Origin: a virus
DNA: 36,497 bases
IMG/VR virus record: IMGVR_UViG_3300048017_000050
Span: 1-36,497 of that record
Direction: 5' to 3' (one strand)
Both the position numbers and the translations under genes were made by a program. Positions 19,440 to 27,823 of the stretch are shown here, in pieces (the first letter of the stretch is position 1; every line of letters starts with the position of its first letter). The notes under the pieces were generated by a model. The model searched no databases. It was not told where the DNA came from and saw only the letters and a program-made list of their open reading frames with translations.

Positions 19440-20534
19440 ATGCAACACTCAAAAATAGTAGGCGGTAGCACCGCCAAGCGCGTTATAAATTGCCCTGGCA
19501 GTGTGGCGCTGGTGGCCGAGATGCCGCCGCAACCCACCAGCTCTTACGCAGAGGAGGGCACGCTGCTTCACGACGAGATAAGCAAATTTCTTGGTGAGTT
19601 GGAATATCGGTTTACTTGCAGCCAAGACCTAATTGTTGATAAGCTCAAACCAGCTTTAGACTTGCTGGACGAGGTAGACCCTGACAAAACAATGGAATAC
19701 GAGGTCGAAACCCGTGTTGGCTTTGGTGACTTGCTGCCCGGCGTGTTTGGCAGCACCGACCTGATGGGTCGTATAGGCAACAAGGCCATCATTTTGGACT
19801 GGAAGTTTGGTTCGGGCGTGCCTGTGCCTGCTGAAGAAAACGAACAGCTTATGTTCTACGCTGCTGCTGCCATGCGTACACCAGCAGCAAAATGGGTGTT
19901 TGATGGCGCGACAGAAGTTGAGCTTATTATCATCCAACCGCCAGCTATAAAACGCTGGACGACCACCATTGAGCGTATCAAAGAGTTTGAGCAGACGCTG
20001 GTTAGGGCTGTGAAGATTGCACAGCAACCAGACGCGCCCCTCAAGCACGGTGACCACTGCCGCTGGTGCGCCGCCAAGCCAACCTGCCCCGTTATCACTG
20101 GCGCAGTAGACCGGGCTATCGTAATGAAAATGGAAAAGATTGACGTTGACAAGATAGGCGCGTATCTACACAATGCAGACCTTCTTGAAGACTGGATCAA
20201 AGACTTGCGTTCGCTTGCCGAGGAGATGATGAAAAAAGGCAAGCCTGTACCAGGATGGAAAATGGTTCCAAAACGGGCGACAAGATCGTGGGCAAACGAA
20301 GCAAACGCAAAGGCTGCGTTGCTAGTTAGCCTCAAAGAATCTGAGGTGGTTGAATCGAAGATGGTTAGCCCGGCTGCTGCCGAGAAGCTGCTTAAAGCGC
20401 AGAAGCTCAAGCTGCCAGATGGCCTGACCGTTTCAATCAGTTCAGGCAACACAATTGCACCGGAGAGTGATCCCCGGCCAGCAGTTGTGTTAATCGGAGC
20501 GCAGTTAAATGCAGCTCTTTCTAAAATCATGTAA
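19440..20534 (+). CDS. DUF2800-type PD-(D/E)XK nuclease
   Basis: The 364-residue protein contains 'STAKRVINCPGSVALVAEMP', 'SYAEEGTLLHDEI', the PD-(D/E)XK strand 'GRIGNKAIILDWKFGSGVPV' (catalytic Asp and Lys near residue 118) and a cysteine cluster 'HCRWCAAKPTCP' near residues 206-217 that may hold an iron-sulphur or zinc ion. This is the layout of DUF2800 proteins, related to RecB and Cas4 nucleases. It starts the replication block with an AAAGGA site. Probably a recombination nuclease; substrate not known. Confidence 0.85.
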   Translation: MQHSKIVGGSTAKRVINCPGSVALVAEMPPQPTSSYAEEGTLLHDEISKFLGELEYRFTCSQDLIVDKLKPALDLLDEVDPDKTMEYEVETRVGFGDLLPGVFGSTDLMGRIGNKAIILDWKFGSGVPVPAEENEQLMFYAAAAMRTPAAKWVFDGATEVELIIIQPPAIKRWTTTIERIKEFEQTLVRAVKIAQQPDAPLKHGDHCRWCAAKPTCPVITGAVDRAIVMKMEKIDVDKIGAYLHNADLLEDWIKDLRSLAEEMMKKGKPVPGWKMVPKRATRSWANEANAKAALLVSLKESEVVESKMVSPAAAEKLLKAQKLKLPDGLTVSISSGNTIAPESDPRPAVVLIGAQLNAALSKIM

Positions 20535-20543
20535 AGGTAAATT

Positions 20544-21197
20544 ATGTTAACTGTTTTTAAATCCGCTGGTCTGCCAGCCGTGTCTTCCCTCGCAACTTCC
20601 TTACGTTCTATTGCCGCCGATGTTGGCCCGGCTGGTGTTGTCATCCTCAAGATGGACAAGACTGGCCATTGGGTATTTGGTGCTGACCAGACCGAGGTGG
20701 AAGAAGATACGACTTGGGCAATCAATCCTTTCTCCTTTGTCCACGGCTTTATCGCTTGGGGCGACGGTGAAGTGTTGGGTGAGAAGATGGCTAGCGTCAG
20801 CCAGCCGCTGCCTGAGTTGGACGTGTCGCCACCCGGCGCTAAGAAAGGCTGGGAGACACAAGTGGGCATGAGCCTGAAATGCTTGTCTGGCGAAGACAAG
20901 GGTATGGAAGCCCGTTTCACCACCACGTCAGTGGGCGGGAAGCGTGCGGTGCAAGCCTTGGCAGTCGCCCTGGCCGAGCAGGTCGATAAAGACCAGACCA
21001 AGCCAGTCGCTATCGTCAAGCTGAAGAAGGATCACTACGCGCACAAGAGCTACGGCAAAATTTACACGCCCGTGTTCCAAGTGGTCGAATGGGTAAGCAT
21101 GGACGGAGAAGAACCAACGCCTGAAAGTGCGTTGACTGCTAGCGTAGAGGCTGATGAAGCTCCCACGCCAGCAGGTCGCCGCCGCCGCGCAGCGTAA
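20544..21197 (+). CDS. Probable single-stranded DNA-binding protein
   Basis: The 217-residue protein is soluble, with strands 'GVVILKMDKTGHWVFGAD', 'WETQVGMSLKCLSGEDKGME' and 'VAIVKLKKDHYAHKSYGKIY', and an acidic-then-basic C-terminal tail (EEPTPESALT and AGRRRRAA). It occupies the place that DUF2815-like ssDNA-binding proteins take between DUF2800 and DNA polymerase in other phages. I did not recognise a specific OB-fold motif. The leader AAAGGTAAATTATG is identical to the leaders of two - strand genes at 26227 and 26714. Confidence 0.65.
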   Translation: MLTVFKSAGLPAVSSLATSLRSIAADVGPAGVVILKMDKTGHWVFGADQTEVEEDTTWAINPFSFVHGFIAWGDGEVLGEKMASVSQPLPELDVSPPGAKKGWETQVGMSLKCLSGEDKGMEARFTTTSVGGKRAVQALAVALAEQVDKDQTKPVAIVKLKKDHYAHKSYGKIYTPVFQVVEWVSMDGEEPTPESALTASVEADEAPTPAGRRRRAA

Positions 21198-25599: not shown

Positions 25600-25794
25600 T
25601 CACCGCCACGCCGCCCGGCGTTCCAGCTCTTGTATAACCAGCAAGCTCATAACTGGCGCGATATCAACCCCGCCCAGCTTGGCGCTAGTTAGTGTGTATA
25701 TAGCTGGCCAACCGGGATCATCGAATGCCGCTGGCTCTGCTGGCTCATATTCAAACTCGCAGTCAAGGGTTAACCCGCATATGATGGTATTCAT
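25600..25794 (-). CDS. Small acidic phage protein (64 aa)
   Basis: The protein reads MNTIICGLTLDCEFEYEPAE, then 'AFDDPGWPAIYTLTSAKLGGVDI'. The 'DPGWPA...l' motif with a preceding 'cefey.pgepa' segment recurs in small phage proteins of unknown function. It overlaps the upstream gene in an ATGA. It is the last gene of this leftward block. Confidence 0.72.
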   Translation of the reverse strand: MNTIICGLTLDCEFEYEPAEPAAFDDPGWPAIYTLTSAKLGGVDIAPVMSLLVIQELERRAAWR

Positions 25795-25949
25795 TTAGTC
25801 ACCCTCGCCGGTGCTGCATAGGCATCCCGCCCCCGGCGCTTGAACCATGATACAACTCGCTGGGCGCGATGCCTGGGCATCAGCCGCTGGCTAATGGCTT
25901 GGCTGTATATCGCGCCTGGCGCGAATAATTGAACTGTGTATAGTGTCAT
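25791..25949 (-). CDS. Small basic protein (52 aa)
   Basis: This 52-codon frame, MTLYTVQLFAPGAIYSQAIS then 'RVVSWFKRRGRDAYAAPARV', is strongly basic in its second half (RxxRAQR, FKRRGRDA). ATGA overlaps at both ends (with the 93-residue and 64-residue genes) fill an otherwise empty 151-bp gap. No other feature was seen there. Function unknown. Confidence 0.62.
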   Translation of the reverse strand: MTLYTVQLFAPGAIYSQAISQRLMPRHRAQRVVSWFKRRGRDAYAAPARVTK

Positions 25950-26227
25950 AGTTCCACCTCAAAAATATCTTCGCCTTGGGGCTGTGTGACGTGTTCACTC
26001 AAGGGTTGCCAATCCCAAGCGCCTATGTTAACGAAATGATTCAGCTTTTCATACATTTTGACGTAATCGGCTGTGCTCATGCTCGCGCCGTATGGCGAGT
26101 AAACGCGCTTTTCTACGCCCTTGCTTTTTTGCCGCTTATGCTTGCCTGTGCATTTGGCGTGTTCTGCCAGAAACTTGGCCGGGTTTAGCGTTTTGTATGT
26201 GGCTTTGCCAATAGTGATTGTTTGCAT
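25946..26227 (-). CDS. Unknown protein (93 aa) with two-hairpin leader
   Basis: The protein begins MQTITIGKATYKTLNPAKFL and contains a basic middle 'CTGKHKRQKSKGVEKRVYS' and 'MSTADYVKMYEKLNHF'. No family recognised; lysine-rich and soluble. Its leader (26228-26285) repeats the structure found before the 139-residue gene, ending in AAAGGTAAATTATG. Confidence 0.75.
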   Translation of the reverse strand: MQTITIGKATYKTLNPAKFLAEHAKCTGKHKRQKSKGVEKRVYSPYGASMSTADYVKMYEKLNHFVNIGAWDWQPLSEHVTQPQGEDIFEVEL

Positions 26228-26285
26228 AATTTACCTTTGGTCTTACCGGGACGAATTGCCCGCATATGGCCACAGCATGGCCATA
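26228..26285 (-). promoter_or_regulatory. Two-hairpin leader, copy 1
   Basis: Read on the - strand it has an 8-bp stem (TATGGCCA/TGGCCATA, 26265-26272 and 26278-26285), then a 4-bp stem CGGG/CCCG (26247-26262) with a CAATT loop, then AAAGGTAAATTATG. Copy 2 at 26715-26774 has the same plan with a different first stem. It fills the gap between two genes. Confidence 0.7.
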
Positions 26286-26294
26286 CACTGACAG

Positions 26295-26714
26295 TCAGAG
26301 CGTTGCAAGGGTGCGGTACTTAGCTACGCGGGCGGCACTGGCGGCCAAGCGTGCCACGGCTGCGCGGTACTCAGTAGGCCAGTATTGGCCAATTGTGTAG
26401 TCAATGGATAAATCAGCGCCCAAGGTTAGACGCCCGCCCCGGCTGCATTCAATTAAGTCCGCGTCAGTCACGCCCTGAGCATAGGCGGCGGCCAACGCTT
26501 CGCGCACATCGTCCAGTTGTTTACTGATAGCACGCGCTTCGCTAAAATACGCGGCGCGGCCGTTAATATCGCGGTAATCGCTGCAATAGTCCCGAAAGTC
26601 AAGGCCGGGGCGCTTGGCCGCGTACATGGCCAGAGCGCGGATACCGTCTGGCACGTTGTCAAGAACTGCCCATTTTGGCAACAGTGAAGCGGCGCGGGGT
26701 GTTAATTGAACCAT
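26295..26714 (-). CDS. Unknown helical protein (139 aa) with two-hairpin leader
   Basis: The protein begins MVQLTPRAASLLPKWAVLDN and contains 'PDGIRALAMYAAKRPGLDFR' and 'ISKQLDDVREALAAAYAQGV', with an alanine-rich C-terminal helix. No motif recognised. Its leader (26715-26774) has the same two-hairpin structure as the one before the 93-residue gene. Confidence 0.75.
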   Translation of the reverse strand: MVQLTPRAASLLPKWAVLDNVPDGIRALAMYAAKRPGLDFRDYCSDYRDINGRAAYFSEARAISKQLDDVREALAAAYAQGVTDADLIECSRGGRLTLGADLSIDYTIGQYWPTEYRAAVARLAASAARVAKYRTLATL

Positions 26715-26774
26715 AATTTACCTTTACTGTTATCGGGTGAAATTGCCCGACTATGCGCATGATGTACGCGCATA
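26715..26774 (-). promoter_or_regulatory. Two-hairpin leader, copy 2
   Basis: Read on the - strand it has a 7-bp stem (TATGCGC/GCGCATA, 26752-26758 and 26768-26774), then a 5-bp stem TCGGG/CCCGA (26733-26750) with a CAATT loop, then AAAGGTAAATTATG. The first stem differs from copy 1 but keeps its pairing, so it is covariant. Confidence 0.7.
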
Positions 26775-26785
26775 AGCTGGAAATA

Positions 26786-26881
26786 TCAAAGGCTGAACAA
26801 AACGAACGTAATGATGTACAGCGCGACAACGAACGCGGCAGCACCTAGCCATATGGCTAGTTCGCTAGGTTCGCGGCTCAT
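26786..26881 (-). CDS. Membrane peptide (31 aa)
   Basis: The 31-codon frame MSREPSELAIWLGAAAFVVA plus 'LYIITFVLFSL' is one membrane helix after a short polar start. It overlaps the 42-residue membrane peptide's stop (ATGA at 26878-26881), so the two are probably co-translated. Possible toxin, superinfection or holin-like peptide; function unknown. Confidence 0.62.
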   Translation of the reverse strand: MSREPSELAIWLGAAAFVVALYIITFVLFSL

Positions 26882-27062: not shown

Positions 27063-27097
27063 CAAATATTTTATAGGTGGTTTCCCTAGGTTTCGAG

Positions 27098-27423
27098 TTG
27101 TGGGTCATTTTGTGGGTCATGTTGCCAAAATGTTGTCACTTTGTGGGTCAAGATTACTCATCAATTTGATAGCAAGGTATTAGCGTGGGCGTTGACGTGC
27201 GGGGATTTGTGGGTCATGTTGCCATTTATATTCTAGACACTATCAATAAAATTATAAATATAGGTTAGTGGGCGAATTGACCCACAACACCACGCGGACG
27301 CCGGACGTGCTCAAAAAAAGTGACAACATGACCCACAAAGGCCTTTTTTCGGGCTAGTGCGTTGATTTATAAGGGTTTTTTGTTGTCATTTAGGGCTAAA
27401 ATTATGACAACATTTTGACAACA
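27098..27423. repeat. Iteron-like array, candidate origin or operator
   Basis: TTGTGGGTCA occurs on the + strand at 27098, 27110, 27141 and 27207 and in inverted form (TGACCCACAA) at 27278 and 27329. TGTTGTCA occurs at 27131 and 27381, inverted at 27321, 27405 and 27416. The joined form TTGTGGGTCATGTTGYCA is found at 27110, 27207 and, inverted, at 27321. An AT-rich stretch (about 27223-27266) lies between direct and inverted sites. The 419-bp gap holds no other gene. This is the layout of an iteron origin with a DNA-unwinding element, or of a regulator-binding region between divergent genes. Confidence 0.78.
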
Positions 27424-27647: not shown

Positions 27648-27730
27648 CTTTTAGTCATATAGACTATGTGGCTAGGTATGCGGATAAAGCACCGCCCGGA
27701 TCCCGTTCCTTTTGCATAGTGTTTTCTGTC

Positions 27731-27815
27731 ACCAGGCCACCAGGCCACCAGGCCACCAGGCCACCAGGCCACCAGGCCACCAGGCCACCAGGCCACCAGG
27801 CCACCAGGCCACCAG
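27731..27815 (+). repeat. Ten tandem copies of ACCAGGCC
   Basis: Ten exact 8-bp copies are followed by ACCAG. It lies 200 bp upstream of the small terminase gene in a 364-bp gap without a convincing gene. Every unit contains CCAGG (a Dcm site) and a GGCC palindrome. Because 8 is not a multiple of 3, translated frames repeat every 24 bp and are all open, which creates a false ORF on the - strand. Confidence 0.95.
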
Positions 27816-27823
27816 CTACATGT

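Follow-up and report, generated by a model that had tools for sequence, protein, structure and literature searches.

Two copies of a structured leader, A (26225-26300) and B (26712-26791), lie on the minus strand of a 36.5-kb virus contig, the whole of which (36,497 nt) is referred to here as the window. The leader is about 75 nt long. It contains helix 1 (8 to 13 bp), with helix 2 (4 to 5 bp) coming directly after it, and comparison of related copies gives good support for its having been selected to fold as RNA. Among uncultivated phages of one group, it precedes some twenty small genes that are unrelated to one another. As far as we have found, it is an RNA family that is absent from Rfam and has no existing description. 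The explanation that we favour, while stopping just short of calling it probable, is that the leader is an RNA module located where gene junctions are shuffled, and that it would allow translation of the downstream gene to begin without reliance on the upstream gene. Three features were missed by the initial annotation of the DNA, namely a stop codon at a fixed position, a second fold, and the recurrence of a single leader beside many different gene families.

Leader A, which is a member of both covariance models described below (R1 score of 96.1 bits; R2, E = 1.1e-15), runs from the stop codon of a 139-aa gene through a 5' box, helix 1, helix 2 and a Shine-Dalgarno sequence to the ATG of a 93-aa gene, all on the minus strand. 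The 5' box reads TGACTGTCAG (26288-26297) and contains, at offset 3, the TGA at which the 139-aa gene ends (26295-26297). Helix 1 is formed by TGTATGGCCAT - GCT - GTGGCCATATG (26263-26287) and helix 2 by CGGG - CAATTCGT - CCCG (26247-26262), and these are followed by the Shine-Dalgarno sequence AAAGG (26234-26238). Leader B, also on the minus strand, is recognised by R1 at E = 7.5e-9 without being part of that model. In its sequence can be read a 5' box, TGATATTTCCAGC (26776-26788), with a TGA that ends a 31-aa reading frame (26786-26788), helix 1 as TTATGCGCGT - ACATC - ATGCGCATAG (26751-26775), helix 2 as CGGG - CAATTTCA - CCCG (26734-26749), and again the Shine-Dalgarno sequence AAAGG (26721-26725).

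The genes around the two leaders are likewise on the minus strand. The 93-aa gene behind leader A (25946-26227), of unknown function, has relatives that lack the leader, and the 139-aa gene between leaders B and A (26295-26714), also of unknown function, has one leaderless relative, in L012. Ahead of leader B is a 31-aa hydrophobic reading frame (26786-26881), a relative of which precedes the leader in L020. The other junctions close to the leaders in this operon are ATGA overlaps, found between the 93-aa gene stop and the next start (25946-25949), at 25791-25794, and between the start of the 31-aa frame and the stop of the frame preceding it (26878-26881). Elsewhere, the record encodes a family A DNA polymerase, a primase-like protein, a large terminase subunit and a portal protein. 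Between leftward and rightward genes of the window, TTGTGGGTCA boxes are repeated in both orientations (27097-27340) and are perhaps an origin or operator, and a tandem repeat of CACCAGGC with about ten units is present at 27730-27817.

Much of what had been read from the window alone was borne out. The stems first described, TATGGCCA/TGGCCATA in leader A and TATGCGC/GCGCATA in leader B, are located on the minus strand where they had been placed, and after helix 1 both copies carry CGGGCAATT..CCCG and then AAAGGTAAATTATG. The stem that had been called outer does exist, but it is a separate hairpin directly before the CGGG..CCCG hairpin and does not enclose it. The proposed duplication of the leader is confirmed by a search of the record, in which A and B match at 80% over 44 nt (E = 2.3e-6), and the downstream proteins of 93 and 139 aa showed no similarity on comparison, in keeping with the claim that they are unrelated. 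The string AAAGGTAAATTATG is also present before a gene at 20544 (20533-20546 of the window, plus strand), where the hairpins are absent.

To look beyond the window, 80 related loci were fetched using the primase-like protein, and covariance model R1 was built on leader A, L034 and L081, with leader B left out. R1 detects the element in 24 of the 80 loci (the model members L034 and L081 being among the 24), oriented alike and located downstream of the primase-like gene, and in none of the remaining 56. Searches of viral contigs with two degenerate DNA patterns returned 69 and 13 stretches, nearly all of which are recognised by R1, and a second model, R2, added a copy in L154. The covariance-model search that the initial annotation had proposed as a check has been run in this way, with 69 distinct elements read overall in related phage contigs, 68 of which have an unbroken helix 1 of 8 to 13 bp that ends 0 to 2 nt before helix 2. 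When reverse-strand echoes of the palindrome are discounted, most of the longer element-bearing contigs carry one copy, and the window carries two. A divergent copy at L034:10914 (minus strand) precedes a gene with ArdC N-terminal and M78 peptidase domains, which is likely an anti-restriction protein because of this pair of domains.

Searches in other directions returned little. Pattern matches in L004, L005, L086, L088, L090, L091 and L092 were dismissed as chance. One pattern gave 29 matches in bacterial genome contigs, none of which is supported by the model (best E = 0.35), and annotated phages gave short, chance-level matches only. By its primase-like protein, the nearest annotated phage is MW202483.1 (55% identity), and the 14-kb stretch of it that was searched contains no copy. 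No Rfam 15 family matches the whole window at or above gathering score, and the one weak match in 26150-26850, to isrG (E = 1.3), is inside the 139-aa gene.

Selection on RNA pairing is seen most clearly when the copies are aligned. Among 65 copies, in an alignment (A7) that was itself fitted to the covariance model, 99.6% of 775 paired cells pair as compared with 80.2% after shuffling, 156 cells have both sides changed, and the covariation score is 0.484, against 0.156 for shuffled alignments and at most 0.085 when the pairing is slid. The first set of 20 copies gave the same picture. Layers 2 to 10 of helix 1 contain, over 51 distinct helices, 418 Watson-Crick pairs, 30 G-U, 0 A-C and 5 others; these copies are related, helix 1 was anchored mainly by its flanking letters, with the better-pairing anchor taken where several were possible, and the search pattern fixes some letters in layers 1 and 3 to 6. 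In the layers that the pattern left free, 2 and 7 to 10, there are 25 G-U and 0 A-C pairs. Helix 2 is unbroken at columns 63-72, where AU occurs 54 times and GC 11 times. A palindrome acting in DNA should tolerate G-T and A-C alike, and the excess of G-U without A-C therefore argues for folding on the mRNA strand. The idea that bases changed while pairing was kept, originally drawn from two copies, is thus upheld across 65, and the further copies, the compensatory changes and the G-U signature together support the view of an RNA element under selection.

The position of the leader relative to its neighbouring genes is tightly defined on the upstream side. In nearly all copies, the upstream stop codon (mostly TGA) is at offset 3, the fourth base of the element, and it is separated from helix 1 by 7 nt in 57 of 67 copies and by 8 to 9 nt in the other 10. 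The downstream start is located 66 to 85 nt past the element's first base. Since these offsets occur in all three frames, fusion of the two genes by readthrough or frameshifting at the stop codon was ruled out. Three kinds of 5' box are found: TTTTCAG; CAATGCCAG; and TATTTCCAGC and the like. The 5' box (mostly UUUUCAG) and the loop of helix 2, which in many copies reads AAUCC or AAUCG, show sequence conservation. A mini-hairpin of 5' CTGA with TCAG was discarded, as it is broken in several copies, e.g., L108, L117 and L096.

In a second possible fold, the same 5' box pairs with the 5' half of helix 2, and the GA of the stop codon takes part. The paired fraction of this fold is 96.4% vs 90.4% when shuffled, and it has 10 doubly compensated cells vs 2.7, with 0 of 2000 shuffles as high, in a comparison where the shuffles ignore relatedness and one class had a bulged base removed by hand. 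In L096, where the stop UGA has become UAA, the partner base in the extended fold has also changed. Stacked on helix 1, the 5' box extension gives a predicted long fold of about 18 to 20 layers with two internal mismatches. The helix 2 fold and the long fold are mutually exclusive, and both covary. Over 67 copies, calculated energies favour the helix 2 fold in 41 and the long fold in 25, with the two within 2 kcal of each other in 40. The cost of opening the Shine-Dalgarno sequence is 1.60 vs 1.85 kcal/mol between the folds (P = 0.012 on non-independent sequences), and a Shine-Dalgarno switch was rejected in view of this small effect. A consensus scan of 26225-26300 and 26712-26791 detected no promoter-like and no terminator-like site; a transcription attenuator, one of the kinds of element first offered, is not favoured as neither leader contains anything resembling a terminator.

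Crude reading-frame calls place about 17 gene families upstream of the leader and about 22 downstream, in 36 combinations, with the upstream count inflated by single-member families and short frames. Some families are found on both sides. Where relatives of these flanking genes lack the leader, they often extend by a few more codons and are joined to the next gene by an ATGA overlap or a short gap. Likeness between leaders tracks the upstream and the downstream family about equally. This fits recombination within the leader and indicates that the leader does not simply accompany the downstream gene, so that movement with that gene only is unsupported. A common gene ahead of the leader, in L017 and other loci, matches Pfam GP88 (PF17338), which is of unknown function.

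Hairpins shortly after stop codons are not limited to this leader. A strong hairpin begins no more than 14 nt after the stop in 39 of 317 non-leader gaps vs 3.1 when shuffled, as judged with mononucleotide shuffles and crude gene calls on related sequences. Two further hairpin types in the same operons begin 5 to 9 nt, mostly 7 to 9 nt, after the stop codon, a shared placement that suggests a generic role and not the site of one protein. One of these, again with two hairpins, is made up of TAG, CACGCGAC, a helix of TTATGCGGCC/GGCCGTATAG, a helix of GCGCGC/GCGCGC, TATAACC, a Shine-Dalgarno sequence and ATG, and is found at L030:9145 (minus strand) and also in L031, L036, L037, L038, L042, L047, L051 and L085. 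The other is made up of TAA, about 7 to 8 nt, a GGCC..GGCC hairpin of varying stem, an AU-rich stretch, a Shine-Dalgarno sequence and ATG. It has 38 pattern matches, some of them due to chance, including L021:9544, L028:6762 and L081:6502 (all minus strand), and it co-occurs with the leader reported here in the loci L021, L028 and L081.

It is from this geometry that the module would derive its function. The leader is presumably part of the leftward operon mRNA and has the stop codon of the upstream gene at its 5' edge, 7 to 9 nt ahead of helix 1, so that ribosomes translating the upstream gene can finish without entering it. Just behind that stop, the folded block may hold post-termination ribosomes back from the next start while leaving the ribosome-binding site clear, and with a new Shine-Dalgarno sequence and start codon just behind helix 2, the downstream gene could begin on its own. 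Such a gene would be exchangeable regardless of how strongly the upstream gene is translated, and homologous recombination inside the shared leader could shuffle genes on both sides. Besides the geometry, this reading draws on the contrast with ATGA junctions, as junctions of these operons other than those with a leader are often overlaps or nearly touching genes, and on a review according to which predicted structure just downstream of an upstream stop goes with weaker translational coupling (PMC12548453). Insulation by itself would require neither the letter conservation seen in the 5' box and helix 2 nor the second covarying fold, and 278 junctions with a gap of at least 25 nt (on crude gene calls) carry no such hairpin.

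Behind an insulated start, the rivals that remain are ranked as RNase processing, then a translation-sensing switch, then factor binding or antitermination. Early genes of phage T7 are separated by RNase III sites in structured intergenic RNA, and the leader resembles these in being structured RNA between early operon genes. It is possible, if unlikely, that the long fold is a cleavage site for RNase III or protects the ends of mRNAs, with neighbouring mRNAs being separated or stabilised. The paired fraction and double compensation of the extended fold, L096 included, are what one would expect here, and the free variation of helix 1 letters would suit an enzyme that reads shape. Unlike the T7 sites, however, the leader has a second conserved hairpin in competition with the long fold: helix 2, whose own conservation includes compensatory changes, cannot form together with the extended fold. 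In addition, helix 1 varies in length from 8 to 13 bp. The two exclusive covarying folds of near-equal energy, and a stop codon that belongs to the outer helix, could instead be explained by a switch in which a ribosome at the embedded stop keeps the outer helix from forming, with helix 2 favoured, and the long fold forms otherwise, so that downstream expression differs. This we consider somewhat less likely again, as the Shine-Dalgarno sequence is nearly equally open in both states and no clear switch output was found.

A site for a phage or host factor on the RNA, e.g., for antitermination like that at nut or at HK022 put, or for a translational repressor, is slightly more doubtful still. 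In shape, the nearest known element is put RNA, which is about 70 nt long with two tandem stem-loops in phage transcripts and non-canonical A-G pairing (PMC9378689). The leader likewise has two tandem stem-loops in about 70 nt, with A-G pairing predicted in its long fold, and the letters of its 5' box and helix 2 loop are conserved as a factor might require. On the other hand, put is located downstream of early promoters and acts on RNA polymerase, by way of the polymerase's zinc-binding domain (PMC9378689), whereas the leader is intergenic, tied to stop and start codons at varying junctions, mostly present once per genome, and often absent, as in the 56 loci without an R1 copy. Antitermination would need neither a fixed stop ahead nor a start behind. 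Least probable, and already disfavoured, is a DNA-level element, that is, a recombination linker or palindromic binding site kept for gene exchange and not as RNA. The many gene combinations, with the leader as the sequence common to shuffled junctions, would suit such an element, but the 30 G-U vs 0 A-C pairs of helix 1 do not, and no tyrosine integrase was found in the record. A check against integron attC sites found no PF00589 match in the record, with its controls positive (14/14), for a record that may be incomplete and for integron integrases, which act in trans. A record search for a T7-type phage RNA polymerase gave no match, with its positive control silent too.

Two other phage systems also invite comparison. 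The promoter-early stem-loop elements (PeSL) of T4-type phages are small repeated intergenic stem-loop cassettes at which genes are shuffled, and which contain a strong sigma-70 promoter and a terminator. The leader shares the cassette form and the location at gene-shuffling sites, and differs in that the consensus scan gave leaders A and B neither of these sites. In arrangement, the nearest known system is the extended SAS of cluster K mycobacteriophages, where SAS and extended SAS repeats are found just upstream of the starts of many unrelated non-structural genes (PMC3203893). In both systems, a start codon is preceded by inverted repeats that have a variable spacer. The inverted repeats of the extended SAS have little support for RNA pairing, and its authors favour a DNA-binding protein (PMC3203893), whereas the leader keeps pairing by compensation, has another sequence and includes a fixed upstream stop. 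On reading the sequence, the 13-bp SAS sequence GGGATAGGAGCCC is next to the start codon in neither leader.

None of the annotated phages searched is a near relative of the group from which the leader family comes. The family would link independent translation of tightly packed phage genes, a stop codon within an RNA fold, and the swapping of small early genes, three topics that are usually studied separately.
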